A stretch of DNA of 64,000 bases from Hafnia alvei (GTDB lineage: Bacteria; Pseudomonadota; Gammaproteobacteria; Enterobacterales; Enterobacteriaceae). Position numbers and translations under genes: made by a program. Positions within the stretch are counted from its first letter, which is position 1. Every line of letters starts with the position of its first letter. The DNA lies in contig NZ_CP139992.1 of NCBI RefSeq assembly GCF_034424155.1, forward strand, positions 62,001-126,000, in the 5' to 3' direction. The notes under the pieces were generated by a model. The model was not told the origin of the DNA. It made no database searches and saw only the letters and a list, made by a program, of their open reading frames with translations. Shown piece after piece: positions 28,993 to 39,919 of the stretch.

Positions 28993-29139
28993 CTTATCTC
29001 TACGAATAAATCCCCTGAGTAAAACGCTTTTTATTATTCCCTGAAGGCATAACTGTATCTTTTTTATTCTTTAATGATTCCTCAGGTTTCTGGCAGGCTC
29101 TACCTTAACTTCTTGGGGACAAAGTTTTGGAGAGCGGTG

Positions 29140-30129
29140 ATGCATAAATTCGGGATTGGGCTGTCGTTACTGCTGGTGGCTACCGGTGCACTGGCAAAAG
29201 ATATTCAGTTGCTAAACGTTTCTTACGATCCAACGCGAGAGCTTTATCAACAATACAACGAGGCTTTCAGCAAACACTATAAGCAAGAAACGGGCGATAA
29301 CGTGACGATCAGGCAGTCTCATGGCGGCTCCGGCAAACAAGCGACCTCGGTCATCAACGGTATCGAAGCCGATGTTGTCACGCTTGCGCTGGCTTATGAC
29401 GTTGACGCCATCGCTGAACGCGGCCGCATTGATAAAAACTGGATCAAACGCCTACCCGATAACTCTGCACCTTACACTTCGACCATTGTATTTTTGGTAC
29501 GTAAAGGCAATCCCAAACAGATCCACGACTGGAATGATTTAATCAAGCCGGGCGTTGCCATTATTACCCCGAATCCAAAAACCTCAGGCGGCGCGCGCTG
29601 GAATTATTTAGGCGCATGGGGTTATGCATTGCAAAACAACAACAACGATCAGGCGAAAGCGAAAGAGTTCGTGAAGGCGTTGTATAAAAACGTAGAGGTG
29701 CTGGATTCTGGCGCGCGTGGGGCAACCAATACCTTTGTTGAGCGAGGTATCGGTGATGTGCTAATCGCATGGGAAAATGAAGCGTTGCTGGCGCAGCATG
29801 AGCTGGGCAAAGATCAGTTTGAAATTGTAACGCCAAGCATGTCTATCCTTGCAGAGCCAACGGTATCAGTTGTCGATAAAGTGGTCGATAAGCGCGGTAC
29901 GCGTCAGGTTGCTGATGAATATCTGAAGTATTTGTATTCACCGGAAGGTCAAACTATCGCGGCGAAGAACTATTACCGCCCGCGCGACGAGGCCATTGCC
30001 AAACAATACAGCCAGCAGTTCCCACAGTTGAAGCTGTTTACCGTTGACCAAGTCTTTGGTGGCTGGCAGAAAGCGCAAAAAGAGCACTTTTCAACCGGCG
30101 GCGAGTTTGATCAAATCTCGCAGCGATAA
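29140..30129 (+). CDS. sbp: Periplasmic sulfate-binding protein Sbp
   Basis: Sbp binds sulfate in the periplasm and delivers it to the CysUWA ABC transporter. The 329-residue precursor has a signal peptide ending near GALA-K, then [17 protein letters not shown], the sulfate-contacting [10 protein letters not shown], and [16 protein letters not shown] 29140 is preceded by GGAGAG and gives the right signal peptide; the frame also opens at 29074. It is expected to be CysB activated, but the site is too degenerate to place by eye. The E. coli neighbour cdh is absent; tpiA follows on the other strand. Confidence 0.97.
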
Positions 30130-30142
30130 AATATCAGATATA

Positions 30143-30169
30143 AAAAAACCCCGGAGATCCGGGGTTTTT
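30143..30169. terminator. Bidirectional terminator between sbp and tpiA
   Basis: AAAAAACCCCGG / CCGGGGTTTTT arms with an AGAT loop give a terminator on both strands for the convergent sbp and tpiA genes. Confidence 0.93.
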
Positions 30170-30192
30170 GCATTTAAAGCATAAATAAGCGA

Positions 30193-30960
30193 TTAGGCTT
30201 TTTTCGCTTCAGCTGCTGCTTTAACGATAACTGCGAAAGCGTCAGCTTTCAGAGATGCACCGCCAACCAGCGCGCCATCGATGTCTGGCTGGGTGAACAG
30301 CTCAGCAGCGTTAGCGGCATTTACAGAGCCACCGTACTGAATGATTACTTCTTCAGCGGCTTCAGCGTTGTGTTTAGCGATATGATCACGGATGAATTTG
30401 TGAACGGCCTGAGCCTGTGCTGGAGTTGCAGATTTGCCAGTACCGATTGCCCATACTGGTTCGTAAGCGATGACTGCACCTTTGAACACCTGAGCGCCCA
30501 TGGTTTTCAGCACGGCGTCTAACTGACGCGCACAAACTTCCTGAGTTTTACCTGCTTCGTTTTCTGCGTCGGTTTCACCGATGCACAGAACAGGGATTAA
30601 ACCTGCTTCTTTAACCGCTGCGAATTTCTCAGCAATGAACTCGTCGCTTTCTTTGTGGTAAGTACGACGCTCTGAATGGCCGATAATGATGTATTTAGCA
30701 CCAACATCTTTCAGCATCTGAGCAGAGGTTTCACCAGTGAATGCGCCAGATGCGTTGATACCAACGTCTTGCGCGCCCAGAGCGATACGAGAACCTGCCA
30801 GAGTATGTGCAGCCTGATCCAGATAGATAGTTGGTGGCGCGATAGCAACGTCACAGTTGGCCACTTCGCTCAGTTCGTTACGCAGCGCAAGGATCAGTTC
30901 GTTGACCATGTGGTGGCTGCCGTTGAGTTTCCAGTTGCCCATGACTAATGGTTGACGCAT
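30193..30960 (-). CDS. tpiA: Triosephosphate isomerase TpiA
   Basis: TpiA interconverts dihydroxyacetone phosphate and glyceraldehyde 3-phosphate. The 255-residue TIM barrel has GNWKLNGS with the N-terminal catalytic Lys, IIGHSERR with the catalytic His, [12 protein letters not shown] with the catalytic Glu, and the phosphate-binding [11 protein letters not shown] 30960 is preceded by GGAGAAATGAAA; an upstream in-frame start at 30987 gives a non-family extension. Confidence 0.98.
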
Positions 30961-31086
30961 TTTCATTTCTCCAATTCGGGAACACATAATCGTAAAAGTC
31001 TGCCTTACGGCATTGTCTGTAAATCAGTATAGAAAGCTCGCGACTAAGAAGTTTTGTTTTCCATCATGAAATACGAAAGGATGCGA

Positions 31087-31770
31087 CTAAGTTGCATTAT
31101 CTGATAACGACAGCTTAATCGGTTCAACAGCGAAAGTAATACCTTTTTCTGCGCTATCTGACACCACATAGCGCAATGCCCCATCGTTTTGGGCGAAATA
31201 GAGCTGGCCTTTCCCTTTATTCAACAATGAGGAGACCTTAGCGGTGCATTGATCAAAGGACAGTGTAGGCGAAAAATGACGCATGATGGCGGCCATATAA
31301 TTTACAGCCAGCGCACGTGATGCTTTGTCTTTGTCGTCCGGCTTAACCGTTTTCTTGTCCTCAGCTTTACCACTCTCTTTTTCATCTTTTACGGGAATGG
31401 GGGGGATATAAGTAATCTGTAAGCTTTTAATCTTACCGGTGCCTTTTTCCAGCACCACGGAAGAGTAGAGGTCGTCATTGATTTTGCTCGCCGCGCGGGT
31501 AATCGCGGTTTCTTCATTTTTAACGCTGATGGCACGGTATTCATTGATGATGAGCGTTGGATTTTCAATGTTGTACTTAGACCGGAACTCAACCAGCGTT
31601 AAATCAAAGGTAGGTGCGTTGGGGAGCAGATAAGGCGCCGCAGGGAGTTCGTCACTCAGAGAATGCTTATCATCTGCTGCATGAGCTGAGAAGCTGATGG
31701 TGGAGGCCCATAGAAGCAGCATCGGTAAGAGGAAAACGTTGTTGGATGTGTAGCAACTCATTTTTTTCAT
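31087..31770 (-). CDS. yiiQ: YiiQ-family (DUF1454) secreted protein
   Basis: The product is a 227-residue putative periplasmic protein of the YiiQ family with no established function. A signal peptide (roughly residues 1-32, ending near SAHA) is followed by the family blocks APYLLPNAPTFDL, TRAASKINDDLYSS, and a C-terminal ALRYVVSDSAEKGITFAVEPIKL. A Lys/Asp/Glu-rich insertion of about 30 residues in the middle appears longer than in the E. coli protein. The start is uncertain among ATG 31770, ATG 31761 and GTG 31794. It follows tpiA as in E. coli. Confidence 0.87.
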   Translation of the reverse strand: MKKMSCYTSNNVFLLPMLLLWASTISFSAHAADDKHSLSDELPAAPYLLPNAPTFDLTLVEFRSKYNIENPTLIINEYRAISVKNEETAITRAASKINDDLYSSVVLEKGTGKIKSLQITYIPPIPVKDEKESGKAEDKKTVKPDDKDKASRALAVNYMAAIMRHFSPTLSFDQCTAKVSSLLNKGKGQLYFAQNDGALRYVVSDSAEKGITFAVEPIKLSLSDNAT

Positions 31771-31947
31771 TGTTGGTCTGATTTTCCAATCCACTATTCT
31801 GAATGCTGGTAATACACACGCCTGATACCTGATTAAAGCGTTTTAGGAGGGTGATTGTCAAAATTGTGTGCAAAATTCCCCGATGGCCAATCGAGATAAG
31901 GTAGACTTTGCCGCCATTAGGTTTAATTACGTAGGTAACGTCGGAAA

Positions 31948-32379
31948 ATGACCATTCAAAAATGGTGTTTCTCTTTTAACGGACGGATCGGGCGGCGCGA
32001 TTTCTGGATTTGGATGGGGTTGTGGGCGCTGCTTTTAGTGATTATTTTTTCCATTGCAGGAAGCGGCTGGGTTTCACTGCAAACGGCGGCATTTGGCTTG
32101 GTATTTTCTCTTTGGCCAACGGCTGCGGTGCTGGTGAAGCGTTTGCACGATCGTAATAAGTCAGGTTGGTGGGCGCTTTTAGTGGTACTGGCATGGATGC
32201 TAGCTGCGGGGAATTGGAGCATGTTGGCCGAGATCTGGCAGTGGGGGGTTGGGCGTTTTGTCCCTACGCTGATTGGTGTGATGATGCTGATTGACTGCGG
32301 CTCATTCGTGGGAACAGAAGGTGATAACCGTTTTGGCCCAGAGCCTACACCTGTCGATTTTAAGAACGCAGGGCGTTAA
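31948..32379 (+). CDS. yiiR: DUF805 inner-membrane protein YiiR
   Basis: The product is a 143-residue membrane protein of the DUF805 family, function unknown. It carries the family signature FNGRIGRRDFWIWMGLW at the N-terminus, LVKRLHDRNKSGWWAL in the middle, and three to four hydrophobic helices. Length and order next to yiiQ match E. coli. The uspD gene that follows in E. coli is absent; fpr comes next on the other strand. Confidence 0.9.
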   Translation: MTIQKWCFSFNGRIGRRDFWIWMGLWALLLVIIFSIAGSGWVSLQTAAFGLVFSLWPTAAVLVKRLHDRNKSGWWALLVVLAWMLAAGNWSMLAEIWQWGVGRFVPTLIGVMMLIDCGSFVGTEGDNRFGPEPTPVDFKNAGR

Positions 32380-32382
32380 AGC

Positions 32383-32412
32383 AAAAAAAGTGCCGGACAA
32401 ATTATCCGGCAC
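32383..32412 (-). terminator. fpr rho-independent terminator
   Basis: The 8-bp stem GTGCCGGA / TCCGGCAC (32390-32412) is followed on the minus strand by seven T residues. It lies about 15 bases beyond the fpr stop and may also reduce readthrough from yiiR. Confidence 0.9.
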
Positions 32413-32427
32413 CCGATCGTGGCGCTA

Positions 32428-33174
32428 TTACCAGTAATGCTCGCTGGTGATATGGCCTGGTTTACGGCGCAAATGCTTACGCATTCCACGCGTTTCCTTC
32501 AGTACCTGCTGGGTATCGCGCACCATCTGCGGATTACCGCATAACATAATGTGGCTGTTATCGGCATCAATTTTCAGGCCGACGGCGGCTTCCAGCGAGC
32601 CATCCTCAATTAGTGCGGGAACTCGCCCCTGCAGTGAACCCGCAGCGTTCTCACGGCTAACTACGGTTTGAATCCGCAGTTTACCGTTATAACGCTGCTC
32701 AAGTTGTTGCATCAGCGGCAAATAGCTTAGGTCTTGCGCCAAGCGAGCGGCATGAACCAAAACGATATTTTCAAAGCGTTCTAGGTCTTTGCCTTCCTGC
32801 AGAATTGACAAATAAGGCCCCAGCGCGGTCCCTGTCGCGAGCATCCATAGCGTATTACAGTCAGGCACCTCTTCCAGAACAAAGAAGCCTGCGGCCTCTT
32901 CAGTCACTTGTAAAGTATCTCCGGCCTGCAAGCTGTGCAGGCGAGGGCTGAGCTTGCCATCAGGCACGGTCACCAGATAAAACTCTAAGTTATTATCACT
33001 CGGCGCGTTGACGTAAGAGTAAGCGCGTTGCACACGCTCACCGTCGATATCCAAGCCGAGTTTGGCAAACTGGCCAGCCTTAAAGGCATTGACCGGTGCT
33101 TGCACTTGTATGCTGAACAGATTATCTGTCCAGTGTTGAACTTGAGTAATGGTTCCCGTTACCCATTCTGCCAT
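32428..33174 (-). CDS. fpr: Ferredoxin/flavodoxin-NADP+ reductase Fpr
   Basis: Fpr moves electrons between NADPH and flavodoxin or ferredoxin, supporting Fe-S assembly, oxidative-stress defence and radical enzymes. The 248-residue FAD enzyme has the RAYSYVNAP FAD motif, the ATGTALGPYLSIL NADP-binding segment, CGNPQMV, and the C-terminal EHYW that stacks on the flavin. It starts two bases after the stop of the SufR-like regulator gene, within whose last codons its ribosome-binding site CGGGAG lies. This differs from E. coli, where fpr is monocistronic and SoxS activated. Confidence 0.97.
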   Translation of the reverse strand: MAEWVTGTITQVQHWTDNLFSIQVQAPVNAFKAGQFAKLGLDIDGERVQRAYSYVNAPSDNNLEFYLVTVPDGKLSPRLHSLQAGDTLQVTEEAAGFFVLEEVPDCNTLWMLATGTALGPYLSILQEGKDLERFENIVLVHAARLAQDLSYLPLMQQLEQRYNGKLRIQTVVSRENAAGSLQGRVPALIEDGSLEAAVGLKIDADNSHIMLCGNPQMVRDTQQVLKETRGMRKHLRRKPGHITSEHYW

Positions 33175-33176
33175 GG

Positions 33177-33800
33177 TTACAACTCCCGAGGTGTAATGCG
33201 ATATGCACAGCGGCGTGAGTTGGAAATAATATGCTCGACTCGGTCGATTTCATAGTTCGGCCCTAAAAGACGATGCAATAAACTCAGCTCTGAGTTGCAT
33301 AAGTTACCGCAGTTATGGGCTGCAACGCCAATCGGACAGTGGTTTTCGATCAGGACAACGGCATCGTCTTCGACTTCCAACTCGGCCATATAGCCGTCGT
33401 TTTGGCGCAGGCGAGCCAAGGCCTGAAAGCGCTCCTCACCTTCGGGATGCTTTTCAAGCTCGGTCGTATAACGCTGGAAGAGAGAGTCTTCGCGCACGTT
33501 AATGAGTTTGTCGACGCCTTCATCACCAAATAATTGCTGTGCGGCGCCAAGTAACACGCGTGACAGATCTTGATGACGATCTGGGAATTGGCCGTGGCCC
33601 TTGGTGGTTAATGACCAATAACGCGTTGGGCGACCTACCTTGGTTCTGGCCTCTTCATAACAGACAAGCTCACGTTGCTCGAGCTGCTGTAAATGCTGGC
33701 GAATGCCCATAGTCGTGATAGAAATTCTATCTGCGAGCATTTTGGCTGATTGAGGGCCTAGGCTCTTCAACTGCAGCATAATCAGTTCTGGTGTCTTCAT
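33177..33800 (-). CDS. SufR-like winged-helix regulator with Fe-S cysteine motif
   Basis: The product is a 207-residue COG2345-type regulator (DeoR/ArsR-like winged helix, residues about 1-70, SITTMGIRQHLQQLE as recognition region). Its C-terminal domain carries four cysteines, C155-x8-C164-x3-C168-x29-C198, the type of cluster-binding motif seen in the Fe-S sensor SufR. I infer an Fe-S-responsive regulator. It is the first gene of a two-gene operon with fpr (2-base gap), so fpr expression is probably tied to its own autoregulation. A 7-bp inverted repeat TTTAATA/TATTAAA (33833-33859) upstream is a possible operator. E. coli lacks this gene at fpr. Confidence 0.82.
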   Translation of the reverse strand: MKTPELIMLQLKSLGPQSAKMLADRISITTMGIRQHLQQLEQRELVCYEEARTKVGRPTRYWSLTTKGHGQFPDRHQDLSRVLLGAAQQLFGDEGVDKLINVREDSLFQRYTTELEKHPEGEERFQALARLRQNDGYMAELEVEDDAVVLIENHCPIGVAAHNCGNLCNSELSLLHRLLGPNYEIDRVEHIISNSRRCAYRITPREL

Positions 33801-34092
33801 GACTCAAATCCTTTTGGAAAGTGGGTATATAGTTTAATAACTTATAAATCGCTATTAAATGATTAATATTCTCTATTTTTAATCTCGTCGCAGAAAGAAC
33901 ATGTTGCTGTAACTTTTTCTTTACGAGTCGGGTACTTTTATATGCCAAATCACACCAGAATAAAGAACCTTACTCTCTCGTTTATTTAAACCAATCTGTT
34001 AGATTATGCGCCGATCTATGGGTTTAACTTCCTGACTTTCACCAAGTGAATGGTCGATTATACTAATTTAATGCGTCGGCAAGCGTAAGATA

Positions 34093-35277
34093 ATGAGAAA
34101 GCTCGAAAATTTTCATCTGTTAGTGATGTTGATTCTATTAGTCGCCGTTGGTCAGATGGCGCAAACCATTTATGTGCCTTCTATTGCCGATATGGCGCGC
34201 GATTTAGGTGTGCGTAGCGGTGCGGTGCAGGGCGTAATGGCGGCGTATTTACTGACCTATGGTGGCTCGCAGTTGATCTACGGCCCGATATCCGATCGGG
34301 TGGGCCGTCGCCCCGTTATTCTGCTCGGTATGGGGATTTTCATCGCTGGTGCCTTGTGGGCATTGCTGTCTACCAATTTAGACATGCTGATCATGGCGAG
34401 TGCCTTGCAAGGAATGGGGACGGGTGTTGCCGGCGTAATGGCGCGAACGATGCCCCGCGATCTTTACGAAGGGCCTTCTCTGCGTTATGCCAATAGCCTA
34501 TTAAACATGGGTATTCTGGTTAGCCCGCTGCTGGCACCGGTCATCGGCGGCATGTTGGATTCGGTACTAGGCTGGCGTGCTTGCTATGGCTTCCTACTGC
34601 TGCTGTGCGTTTGCGTTATGTTTTCGATGTATCGCTTTCTGCCAGAAACTCGCCCAGCTAACGCACCGCGTAAGAACATGCTTGCCAGCTACAAGATGTT
34701 GCTGACTAACGGCTCGTTTGGTTGCTATCTGATTATGCTGGTTGGTGGACTGGCTGGGGTAGCTGTATTTGAAGCCTGCTCCGGCGTCTTAATGGGCGGC
34801 GTATTAGGACTTAGCGGCATTGTCGTTAGTATTCTGTTTATTCTGCCTATTCCTGCGGCCTTCTTCGGCGCTTGGTACGCAGGACGTCAGGGAAAAAGCT
34901 TCTCCACGCTGATGTGGCATTCGGTGATTAGCTGTTTAGTTGCGGGATTCATGATGTGGATACCAGGCTGGTTCGGCATTATGAATATCTGGACGCTGGT
35001 TGTACCTGCGGCGTTGTTCTTCTTTGGCGCTGGAATGCTGTTCCCACTGGCGACCACCGGTGCCATGGAGCCATTCCCGTTCTTGGCGGGTGCTGCGGGT
35101 GCTTTAGTGGGTGGATTGCAAAACGTAGGTTCTGGTGCGATGGCGTGGTTTTCAGCGCTGTTGCCTCAGACGGGGCAATTCAGCTTAGGCATGTTAATGA
35201 CGGCAATGGGCGTGATGATTCTGCTTTGTTGGCTGCCACTGGCGCATAAAATGCAGCAGCAAGGGCATATGGCGTAG
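34093..35277 (+). CDS. emrD: Multidrug efflux MFS transporter EmrD
   Basis: EmrD is a 12-helix major-facilitator proton antiporter that exports amphipathic compounds. The 394-residue protein contains the QTIYVPSIADMA N-terminal helix region, the MFS loop motif GPISDRVGRRPVIL between helices 2 and 3, and MARTMPRDLYE. It matches EmrD along its full length. In E. coli emrD is elsewhere; here it lies between the SufR-like regulator and glpX. The ribosome-binding site is weak. Confidence 0.93.
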   Translation: MRKLENFHLLVMLILLVAVGQMAQTIYVPSIADMARDLGVRSGAVQGVMAAYLLTYGGSQLIYGPISDRVGRRPVILLGMGIFIAGALWALLSTNLDMLIMASALQGMGTGVAGVMARTMPRDLYEGPSLRYANSLLNMGILVSPLLAPVIGGMLDSVLGWRACYGFLLLLCVCVMFSMYRFLPETRPANAPRKNMLASYKMLLTNGSFGCYLIMLVGGLAGVAVFEACSGVLMGGVLGLSGIVVSILFILPIPAAFFGAWYAGRQGKSFSTLMWHSVISCLVAGFMMWIPGWFGIMNIWTLVVPAALFFFGAGMLFPLATTGAMEPFPFLAGAAGALVGGLQNVGSGAMAWFSALLPQTGQFSLGMLMTAMGVMILLCWLPLAHKMQQQGHMA

Positions 35278-35289
35278 TTGAGCGAACAT

Positions 35290-35322
35290 CGTTCAGCCTC
35301 CTCGAGAACGGGAGGCTGAACG
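35290..35322. terminator. Perfect 12-bp stem-loop between convergent emrD and glpX
   Basis: CGTTCAGCCTCC and its exact complement GGAGGCTGAACG flank a 9-base loop. It sits between the stops of two convergent genes, the place for a terminator, but neither side has a T run, so it may act with Rho or as an RNA 3'-end protector. Confidence 0.55.
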
Positions 35323-35329
35323 AGTGAAA

Positions 35330-36340
35330 CTAGATAATCAATTCGCAGATCTTCGGATCTTTACGGTCTAGGTAATGCGTTGAGCGAATGCGGCGAATCG
35401 TTCGCGATTTACCACGAATCAGCAGCGTTTCCGTTGTCGCCATATTGCCTTTACGATAAATCCCTTCCAGCAAATCGCCCTTCGTGATCCCCGTTGCGGA
35501 GAACACCACGTTATCGTTACGCGCCATTTCATCCAGACGCAGCACTTTACCGGCTTCAATACCCATTTCAGCACAGCGCTTCAGCTCTTGCTCGCCTAAA
35601 GCACGGTTTTCAGGCGTGTCGCCTTTTACGTCGTGGCGTGCCAGCAGGCGGCCATGCATATCGCCATCCAGAGCACGAATAACGGCGGCTGATACTACGC
35701 CTTCAGGCGCACCACCGATGCCATACATCACATCGACTTCGCTTTCAGGCATACAGGTCAGAATTGAGGCGGCAACATCACCGTCAGGAATGGCAAAAAC
35801 TTTAACGCCCATCGCCTGCATTTCCGCAATAACGCCATCATGGCGAGGTTTTGCCAGCGTGATGACGGTCAGTTCATGCAGTGGTTTTTCCAGTTTTTCA
35901 GCTACTAAACGCAGGTTTTCGGCCAATGGACGATTTAAATCGATAACCCCCTTAGCTTGAGGCCCTACGACTAACTTTTCCATATACATATCTGGCGCGC
36001 GTAAAAACGTACCCTTATCACCGACAGCCATCACGGCGAGCGCATTTGACTGCCCCATGGCCGTCATGCGAGTGCCTTCAATAGGATCTACCGCGATATC
36101 AACCTGATCGCCGTTGCCAGTACCGACACGCTCGCCGATATATAACATTGGCGCTTCATCGATCTCTCCTTCACCGATGACGATTTCCCCGTCGATATCG
36201 ACCTGATTAAGCATAATGCGCATCGCATTTACGGCAGCGCCGTCGGCGGCATTTTTGTCACCACGACCTAACCATTTATAACCTGCCAGTGCTGCGGCTT
36301 CTGTGACGCGGGAGAACTCGATGGCTAATTCACGTTTCAT
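35330..36340 (-). CDS. glpX: Class II fructose-1,6-bisphosphatase GlpX
   Basis: GlpX hydrolyses fructose 1,6-bisphosphate in gluconeogenesis from glycerol. The 336-residue Li+-sensitive phosphatase-superfamily enzyme has GEGEIDEAPMLYIG and VDPIEGTRMTA metal-binding motifs and the MYGIGGAPEGV loop. ATG 36340 gives the family start MKRELAIEFSRV; the frame runs 34 codons further upstream without family similarity. It lies downstream of glpK but is separated by a 615-base gap holding a palindromic element, so coupling to glpFK transcription may be altered. Confidence 0.96.
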   Translation of the reverse strand: MKRELAIEFSRVTEAAALAGYKWLGRGDKNAADGAAVNAMRIMLNQVDIDGEIVIGEGEIDEAPMLYIGERVGTGNGDQVDIAVDPIEGTRMTAMGQSNALAVMAVGDKGTFLRAPDMYMEKLVVGPQAKGVIDLNRPLAENLRLVAEKLEKPLHELTVITLAKPRHDGVIAEMQAMGVKVFAIPDGDVAASILTCMPESEVDVMYGIGGAPEGVVSAAVIRALDGDMHGRLLARHDVKGDTPENRALGEQELKRCAEMGIEAGKVLRLDEMARNDNVVFSATGITKGDLLEGIYRKGNMATTETLLIRGKSRTIRRIRSTHYLDRKDPKICELII

Positions 36341-36955
36341 TGTAGATCCGTATTGGTTACTGAAAGTTTGAAGGATAAAGACGGGAGGGGATTTTAGCAC
36401 AAGGTGAGTGGGGGGATTGGAAAACGATTGCAGGGGCATCATGCTGCTGCCTTCTATTCTATGTTGGAGCGGTGAAGGGTTTCATCCGCCAGTCAGCAAA
36501 TTTGTTTCCATGAATCCGTTGGCGTAGGCGTCCGATGAGAGCCCCGTTGCGCGGGGGCTCTTAACTCGCGCGCTTTTTACCGAGCTGTTTGGCCGACCGG
36601 TCTCGGAGCGCACATCCTGTGCGCCCTCAACCTGCCACCAGCATCCCTGCTGGCGGCTCTAAAATACATTCTTTCAACAGGACAAGACAAAAGATAAAAG
36701 GCAAAAGACATTTTTGTCTTTTTAACTATTTAAGTTTTGGTAGAGAGAGCCGCCGGTACAGGGATGTACCGGTGGAGTTTGGGGCGCCCTGGATGGGCGA
36801 TACCAAACCGGAGCGGAGATGGCGTCTCGGACAAAAGCGCGAGGATTGAAGGGGCGCGCGCTGGCGCCCCTCATCGGTCGCCTACGCCAGTGGTTGCAGA
36901 AAAACACAACGGATAGCGGGCGAACGAAACCTTACACCTTAGCTTTACATAAATA
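36341..36955. other. glpK-glpX intergenic region (615 bases)
   Basis: This gap contains no credible gene. About 60% of it is the palindromic element annotated separately (36521-36888). The rest includes the glpX leader (36341-36520) and a short AT-rich segment after the glpK stop. Open frames inside it arise from GC-rich hairpin sequence and are not called. Confidence 0.85.
36521..36888. repeat. Large multi-hairpin palindromic element (MITE-like) between glpK and glpX
   Basis: Terminal inverted repeats of 19 bases with one mismatch (36521-36539 and 36870-36888) enclose a near-symmetric set of hairpins. Left: 36538-36561 (AGAGCCCC/GGGGCTCT), 36608-36624 (GCGCACA/TGTGCGC), 36638-36653 (CCAGCA/TGCTGG). 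Centre: 36703-36722 (AAAAGACA/TGTCTTTT). Right: 36753-36772 (CCGGTACA/TGTACCGG), 36785-36799 (CGCCC/GGGCG), 36851-36870 (GGGGCGC/GCGCCCC). Left-arm loops read TCC or TCCC and right-arm loops GGGA or GGAT, so the two arms are themselves imperfect reverse complements (for example GGCGGCTCT against AGAGCCGCC). No transposase frame is present. It resembles a non-autonomous intergenic repeat or structured RNA. Confidence 0.85.
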
Positions 36956-38506
<1,551 letters not shown>

Positions 38507-39399: not shown

Positions 39400-39919
39400 G
39401 ACTTGATGTCCTAACGACGAATTATTGTAGGGAGTAAGGCTCAGCCCTTATCTATTTATTTTGGGCTTGTTGTAAATTTATCGTTAACGAGCAAAAACGA
39501 GAAATAGCGAAATCAAAATGTGTGTGCTTCGTCATAAAAATGAGTGAAGCCGCGCATTTAGTGCTCTTTTAGCGAAATTTTTTTGTGATCTGACCACTGA
39601 CACAGATCATGGTGACACGATTTTGTAAAATAATTGTGAAAACAACATCGTAGAGAAAAATGCTTTTTTTAGGGATTTGCTGATAGGCAGAAGGTGCGAA
39701 TTTGTTACAGACTGCACTTTGCCTCAGTATCGCGCTAGACAGTAGAGAATGGGGTACATACAATCGGAGTTGAAAAGAATTTATTGCGCAGTGGCTTGCG
39801 CGCCTTGAGGTGACAGCAGCCGTTGTGTTTATGGGCGCAACTATATTTTCGCAGTGGGTGCTAAAGAAACGCACTCACTACAGCAGATGTACGCCTGGCT
39901 ATGATAAGGGGACAGAAGA
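39400..39919. promoter_or_regulatory. Divergent glpF / zapB control region
   Basis: This 520-base gap has no supported gene; a 101-codon minus-strand frame within it resembles nothing known. It holds the candidate GlpR operator at 39476-39495, a CRP-like half-site TGTGATCT at 39584-39591, and AAGGGGACAGAAGA ahead of zapB. Catabolite and GlpR control of glpF are expected from E. coli; exact promoter elements were not resolved. Confidence 0.5.
39476..39495. promoter_or_regulatory. Candidate GlpR operator upstream of glpF
   Basis: The 20-base site centred on the perfect palindrome TCGTTAACGA matches the GlpR consensus (WATGTTCGWWAWCGAACATW) at 15 of 20 positions by eye. It lies about 80 bases upstream of the glpF start, where the repressor of the glycerol regulon is expected. 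Confidence 0.55.

Follow-up and report, generated by a model that had tools for sequence, protein, structure and literature searches.

What controls fpr in Hafnia alvei? In E. coli, this gene for flavodoxin/ferredoxin-NADP(+) reductase is controlled by SoxS. In the window of Hafnia DNA analysed here, a stretch of 64,000 nucleotides, fpr instead follows directly on a gene for a SufR-like winged-helix protein. The initial annotation proposed that the two genes form an operon, that the protein is a cluster-sensing repressor, and that an A/T-rich inverted repeat upstream is its operator. Comparison with related loci upholds the pairing and the protein family and leads to a different view of the DNA site.

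Organization of the locus

The features of the locus, in order of their coordinates in the window, are:

32388..32414, minus strand: terminator-like hairpin 3' of fpr, 12 pairs with a T tail
32428..33174, minus strand: fpr, flavodoxin/ferredoxin-NADP(+) reductase, 248 aa (NF008178)
33177..33800, minus strand: open reading frame for the SufR-like winged-helix regulator, 207 aa, stop codon at 33177-33179; winged helix-turn-helix (wHTH) at residues 1-73, long helix at 76-115, C-terminal domain with C155, C164, C168 and C198
33833..33859, minus strand: TTTAATA-N13-TATTAAA, the earlier-proposed candidate operator, exact only in Hafnia and within chance
33854..33861, minus strand: CATTTAAT, probable fpr promoter element (CATTTAATCGATAAT in many relatives)
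33909..33924, minus strand: GTAAAGAAAAAGTTAC, imperfect dyad between emrD and regulator/fpr
33999..34009, minus strand: GCATAATCTAA, which occurs with emrD whether the regulator is present or not; perhaps part of the emrD promoter
34093..35277, plus strand: emrD, divergent gene for a Bcr/CflA-type MFS efflux pump (NF008654)

The identities of fpr (NF008178, 494.7 bits against a cut-off of 390) and emrD (NF008654, 630.4 bits against 479) are firm. Two bases (CC) separate the regulator stop codon from the fpr ATG, as originally described, and a ribosome-binding-like GGGAG for fpr sits within the last codons of the regulator. The 292-bp region between the regulator and emrD (33801-34092) is common to both divergent units, and emrD is a possible second target. 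Genes at 29074-38500 include an SBP gene, tpiA, yiiQ, yiiR, fpr, emrD, glpX and an FGGY kinase gene (glpK). No suf genes occur among these neighbours, so that the suf linkage used to recognize SufR is missing here. E. coli fpr was said to have no such partner, and in K-12 the gene indeed adjoins glpX; a blastn search of the regulator against the E. coli collection gave no DNA match, although a very diverged copy could escape it. An Rfam search of the locus returned no match.

A relative of SufR with invariant cysteines

The regulator is 99% identical to a protein of Hafnia alvei GB001. Its sole strong family match is to TIGR02702 (SufR), which covers the full length (E 1.1e-25) at a score of 90.6 bits, below the equivalog cut-off of 178.8. 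None of ten relatives scored singly reaches this cut-off (best 128.7 bits), and all 47 rows of one homologue alignment match the model at E<=1e-5. By these scores, the protein is best classified as a relative of SufR and not as SufR itself. Several Pfam HTH models also match, every one under its cut-off, and Rrf2 is absent from the Pfam and NCBIfam matches.

In an AlphaFold model of the regulator (41 rows, mean pLDDT 83.4, pTM 0.58), a wHTH is followed by a long helix and a C-terminal domain of alpha/beta type. Its residues 1-73 superpose on MarR/ArsR-type wHTH structures with Z of about 12; in searches with the whole protein, matches to solved structures and folds cover the wHTH. The predicted fold, together with the full-length TIGR02702 match and the sub-threshold HTH matches, bears out the assignment as a winged-helix protein. 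Around the cysteine loop, at residues 157-161, pLDDT falls below 50, so the model is silent on cysteine geometry.

The four C-terminal cysteines first noted in this protein, C155, C164, C168 and C198, are at the positions given for them and show no variation across all 67 distinct homologues aligned; a further cysteine, C47, is not conserved. At position 158, all 55 other rows carry cysteine and all 12 Hafnia-clade rows carry glycine; this clade has lost a fifth cysteine. SufR of Mycobacterium tuberculosis is reported to require C203, C216 and C244 (PMC6034842). Its spacing, C203-X12-C216-X27-C244, is approached by C155-X12-C168-X29-C198 in the regulator, a likeness to that protein (Rv1460) in spacing. 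The proposal of a SufR-type protein with conserved ligand-type cysteines is thus supported, for a relative that scores under the equivalog cut-off.

Pairing with fpr, distribution and history

The regulator was sought in a sample of 246 genomes from the GTDB family, with a close orthologue defined as a full-length match of 55% or more. Matches occur in 32 genomes, 11 of them close (G000, G126, G228, G070, G137, G232, G078, G145, G170, G025 and G148). In ten of these 11 genomes, fpr begins 2-7 nt downstream of the intact regulator, and the tight pairing seen in Hafnia is therefore conserved. The same 2-7 nt gap holds for all 11 Hafnia-clade loci examined that have both genes, and the two fpr-linked loci outside this clade have gaps of 10 and 104 nt. 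The remaining close genome, G148, has an intact regulator and no fpr match at E<=1e-50. By eye, an open reading frame upstream of its regulator (L023) resembles serine acetyltransferase.

This arrangement is a minority state. A gene for Fpr is present in 230 of the 246 family genomes, and only 10 of the 230 have an intact close regulator, so the regulator is dispensable. In a sample of the whole order, 130 of 394 genomes contain a match, and the gene order emrD-regulator-fpr recurs in two genomes of another family (f11). In a further family, f21, glpX lies beside the regulator in 6 of 11 loci and a yiiR match, one of them partial, is found in 7 of 11 within the 1.5 kb fetched; these neighbours indicate that the regulator has probably been at this chromosomal place for a long time. 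The gene next after the regulator in the f21 locus L066 is of the DUF3135 type, as it is by eye in others.

In a midpoint-rooted tree of 64 proteins, the 13 fpr-linked rows and G148 make up one clade (Hafnia clade plus f11) with support of 99/93. Within it, the Hafnia clade itself has support of 100/98. The combined clade joins f21 at 97/90 and so groups with other regulators of the subfamily. Proteins of clade B (L024-L042), a second SufR-like branch in the same family, are 34-39% identical and form a separate branch of the tree. The idea of a paralogue in the same genome as the fpr regulator was set aside, since the genome has a single match and clade B is a separate branch.

Some relatives preserve traces of a regulator that has been lost. 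In genome G032, a remnant with an internal deletion lies directly before fpr (L103; G032:C14, around 39550-39832), with its first 72 residues and, by eye, its last codons retained. Of 19 tested loci that lack the regulator, three (L080, L093 and L097) still have a recognizable 3' end of its gene. The remnant and these fossils imply that, at least in these lines, the regulator was lost in place. Where the gene persists, dN/dS values for four Hafnia/Edwardsiella pairs are about 0.07, 0.08, 0.03 (with dS saturated) and 0.05, all under 0.1, which indicates purifying selection.

Probable transcription unit and promoter

A scan for hairpins finds five where 2.0 are expected. One is the 12-pair hairpin after fpr (32414-32388), and the other four are stems of 5-6 pairs within the regulator and fpr genes. 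A scan for sigma-70-like promoters gives no match upstream of the regulator and a single match inside it, just before fpr (33253-33226; one found, 2.3 expected), so a promoter for fpr within the regulator gene is possible.

Comparison with loci that lack the regulator points to a promoter farther upstream. Of 21 distinct loci without the regulator, which were drawn from the 30 best fpr matches and are not a random sample, 11 have the element CATTTAA[TC], often in the form CATTTAATCGATAAT, upstream of fpr. The element precedes the regulator at 9 of the 15 distinct loci that carry one, namely those of Hafnia, three of four Edwardsiella loci, L021 and L022, and it also lies ahead of the broken regulator of G032. 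Its absence from the other 6 of the 15 counts against a shared promoter and the reading built on it. The element is assigned to fpr rather than emrD because of its nearness to the gene and because one locus without emrD (L089) has it; the other five of the six loci that lack emrD do not. A second element, GCATAAxxTAA, occurs at 12 of the 15 loci that have the regulator and, among the 15 loci that have emrD and no regulator, at 7.

CATTTAA[TC] is probably an fpr promoter element. If so, the ancestral promoter would be located ahead of the regulator, an argument for a single transcript. Taken with the tight gap and the terminator-like hairpin after fpr, this shared upstream element makes it likely that the regulator and fpr are transcribed together, as the operon proposal held.

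The candidate operator upstream of the Hafnia regulator

The repeat TTTAATA-N13-TATTAAA is present in the sequence (33859-33833), but its occurrence falls within chance: when the 292-bp region undergoes dinucleotide shuffling, 36% of the shuffles have at least one comparable inverted repeat (7 bp, perfect, with a loop of 3-20). A looser version, with TTTAAT or TTTAAC as left arm, is present in four Edwardsiella loci. Neither form was found in L005, L019-L022, L049, L050, L103 or the 21 regulator-less fpr loci. Moreover, six of the seven left-arm bases belong to the CATTTAA element, which is shared with relatives that have no regulator. Footprinting among relatives had been suggested as the check on this palindrome, and on that evidence it is refuted as an operator, a result that leaves the regulator itself standing.

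Other patterns in the region fared no better as regulator sites. Dyads related to GTAAAGAAAAAGTTAC are not specific to the regulator, since they occur at 12 of the 15 loci that have it and also at 9 of the 21 that lack it. The corresponding dyad GTAAA-N6-GTTAC/TGTAC/TGACA was rejected because it is also present in those 9 of 21 loci and because its half-sites lie two bases nearer to each other than those of the operator of the wider family. When dyads were enumerated in 8 regions with the regulator and 15 without it, 13 patterns emerged, almost all composed of A and T; they were not accepted, since the regulator-less regions give the impression of being GC-richer and hence make a poor control.

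A palindrome shared by relatives outside the Hafnia clade

Relatives outside the Hafnia clade carry a palindrome upstream of their regulators. By eye, it reads TAAAGCATTTGCTTTATAAA in f21 and TAAAGTGCTAGCTTTA in f10, with AAGTAAAC-type sites in Motilimonas and related sites in Balneatrix and others. Clade B has a variant, CAAG-N6-CTTG, and the pattern [AC]AAG-N6-CTT[TG] is found at 18 of 19 of its loci where 0.29 would be expected. These CAAG-N6-CTTG sites often come two per locus, by eye.

A position weight matrix (PWM) of 17.4 bits with the consensus TAATAAAGCAATTGCTTTACAA was trained leaving out each group in turn. Sites above the 99th percentile of shuffles were recovered at 10 of 11, 7 of 8, 9 of 9 and 2 of 2 held-out loci, in tests that are not fully independent because the seed was chosen from the same loci. 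Sites of the TAAAG-N6-CTTTA type are present in 28 of 30 loci outside the Hafnia clade, two of them fpr-linked. In one of the f11 genomes with linked fpr (G255, 3.4 Mb), TAAAGC-N4-GCTTTA occurs once, 62 bp before the regulator; a single copy of the control pattern, the site read backwards, is likewise present in that genome. By eye, the palindrome overlaps a -35-like stretch, as expected of an autorepressor site. An autoregulatory role for this site is well supported by comparative evidence outside the Hafnia clade, including before the fpr unit in f11.

The same matrix finds no site in the Hafnia clade (0 of 12 loci). The intergenic region 33801-34092 contains no exact CAAC-N6-GTTG, of which the window has one at 30846 (1.23 expected). 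TAAAG-N6-CTTTA with up to two mismatches is likewise absent from 33801-34092; the window holds 41 such sites against 30.9 expected, with as many in 5 of 100 shuffles. Genome-wide, a relaxed TAAAG-N6-CTTTA search in Hafnia yields 7 sites against 12 for a control pattern, no excess, and TAAAGC-N4-GCTTTA does not occur in this genome. The family operator class is therefore missing from the clade, as is C158, and the DNA site or the wiring appears to have changed here. With no operator found at 12 of 12 clade loci, autorepression at the Hafnia regulator promoter is offered only as a proposal.

Neighbours across the subfamily

The genes beside other members of the subfamily offer a further indication of function. 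A flavin reductase gene (PF03358) is divergent from the regulator in L064 and L071, and L071 also has, behind the flavin reductase gene, a gene of the glyoxalase family (Pfam). By eye, L068 and L075 have the same order of regulator, flavin-reductase-type and glyoxalase-family genes, and L064, L068, L071 and L075 have more than one palindrome between the regulator and the divergent gene. Genes for MFS transporters lie beside L010, L044 and L033, and RND-pump and TolC genes lie beside L046. An annotated MFS gene is adjacent to L047, a relative that resides on a conjugative Klebsiella plasmid. In L045, on Ancylobacter plasmid pA, which is typed as conjugative, the regulator is divergent from a superoxide dismutase gene. 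Clade B shows weak EmrD matches beside 8 of 19 loci, so that at least 8 have an MFS-like neighbour. Other subfamily loci are off this theme, with, for example, murB-, groEL- or RsuA-like reading frames by eye. The recurring neighbours suggest a theme, though not a rule, of defence against redox-active or toxic compounds.

A model for fpr control and its alternatives

The preferred reading is that a SufR-related Fe-S-type repressor is co-transcribed with fpr and that cluster damage raises Fpr. The regulator would be a one-component wHTH protein whose dimers probably hold an Fe-S cluster on the C-terminal cysteines. With the cluster intact, it would bind DNA near its own promoter; damage to the cluster by superoxide, redox-cycling compounds or iron shortage would release the DNA. 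Because the regulator and fpr are probably on one transcript, this event would raise Fpr, which could feed electrons via flavodoxin or ferredoxin for repair, and the rising level of repressor would close the loop. We infer both the sign of control, repression, and the nature of the signal. As a whole, this reading is slightly favoured.

Much of the evidence can be arranged differently. Four cysteines could also form a zinc site, and the zinc-responsive ZitR is among the best matches of the wHTH in both sequence and fold. The regulator might accordingly be a cysteine-thiol or metal sensor that regulates fpr by disulfide or metal occupancy, as the loss in this clade of the fifth cysteine found in 55 other rows could suggest. 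However, the similarity to ZitR spans only about residues 2-94, whereas the full-length match is to SufR and the three-cysteine layout of M. tuberculosis SufR is kept, and such a sensor is judged unlikely. Somewhat less improbable, though still doubtful, is that the regulator chiefly controls emrD or a distant regulon, with fpr carried along by gene order and perhaps served by its own internal promoter. Several relatives adjoin MFS or RND efflux genes, G148 has the regulator without fpr, no operator was found before the Hafnia regulator, and the sole promoter-like match lies inside it. Yet emrD and fpr are adjacent in 15 of 21 loci that have no regulator, so the emrD link is not regulator-specific, and the canonical f11 operator is nearer to the regulator-fpr unit (about 60-80 bp) than to emrD (about 285-300 bp).

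A different view holds that the Hafnia-clade regulator has become a relic, with its DNA site gone and its control of fpr ended. The clade lacks both the operator class and C158, and the gene has disappeared from beside fpr in some relatives. The dN/dS values of 0.03-0.09 in four pairs, intact frames in 11 genomes and retention of the recognition-helix stretch T[TPS]MGxRQH in the clade speak against decay, and this view is very improbable.

Comparison with known systems

Fe-S regulators and ferredoxin-linked reductases have been connected before. IscR is a protein of the Rrf2 family. In Pseudomonas aeruginosa, IscR is reported to control fprB (PMC4521836). There, too, a cluster regulator is tied to a ferredoxin-NADP reductase gene, but the regulator studied here is a SufR relative without an Rrf2 match. 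SufR is reported to act on ftrC, a ferredoxin-thioredoxin reductase subunit gene, in a cyanobacterium, and its motif is given there as CAAC-N6-GTTG (PMC13421787). With these two precedents, control of a ferredoxin-linked reductase by an Fe-S regulator is in principle nothing new.

SufR proteins of cyanobacteria, Mycobacterium and Streptomyces resemble the Hafnia regulator in length, in the combination of a wHTH with a C-terminal Cys domain, in three ligand-type cysteines and, if the preferred reading holds, in repressor logic. The 6-nt-spaced half-sites in the palindrome of relatives also resemble CAAC-N6-GTTG. The Hafnia protein differs in its score, in the absence of suf neighbours, in its candidate target fpr and in having neither motif in its intergenic region. 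ArnR of Corynebacterium is reported to be a wHTH protein with three conserved cysteines (179, 193 and 223) and a [4Fe-4S] cluster; it controls narKGHJI and hmp and is described as having no significant homology to the known O2/NO regulators listed in that report (PMC12343034). It is alike in its wHTH and conserved cysteines and differs in these targets. Among the top matches of a full-text literature search, with subscription literature mostly outside its scope, none dealt with a SufR-like regulator in gammaproteobacteria, and a search on fpr/SoxS in Edwardsiella and Hafnia found nothing to the point.

The closest functional comparison is with SoxRS. SoxR is a MerR-family activator that works through SoxS. 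If the preferred reading holds, the Hafnia system would share with that of E. coli both Fe-S sensing and fpr as an output; it differs in that the Hafnia genome has no SoxR over the cut-off (two matches to TIGR01950, both under it). Ten of the 11 genomes with a close regulator yielded no SoxR, in a search that scored only 15 of the first-look candidates in some genomes. One of the 11 clade genomes thus has SoxR, whereas among 146 other genomes of at least 3 Mb, 95 have it (Fisher p 0.0004, with no correction for relatedness). This contrast fits a replacement of SoxRS at fpr. Against it, 51 of those 146 genomes have neither SoxR nor a close regulator, and G025 has both. In addition, a search of the Hafnia genome with E. 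coli SoxS gives 11 matches at E<=1e-8. The top one, 57% identical in a 295-aa frame, is perhaps Rob, and a SoxS-type protein could still act on fpr.

Implications

A broader scenario joins these observations. In the SoxR-less Hafnia, Edwardsiella and relatives, a SufR-like sensor may replace SoxRS at fpr, reading cluster damage by redox-cycling compounds and inducing the reductase, and perhaps EmrD. Its four-cysteine sensor and its DNA site would both have changed. The subfamily as a whole would then be a general proteobacterial sensor of redox cyclers, linked to efflux pumps, flavin reductases and superoxide dismutase. Taken whole, this scenario is tentative and rather improbable.

For the subfamily, many relatives offer a clear candidate operator, and their neighbours suggest roles in drug and redox defence. 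If a SufR-type sensor does govern fpr in Enterobacterales without SoxR, control of Fe-S repair would have been rewired within one order, and two control designs could be compared on one gene, fpr.
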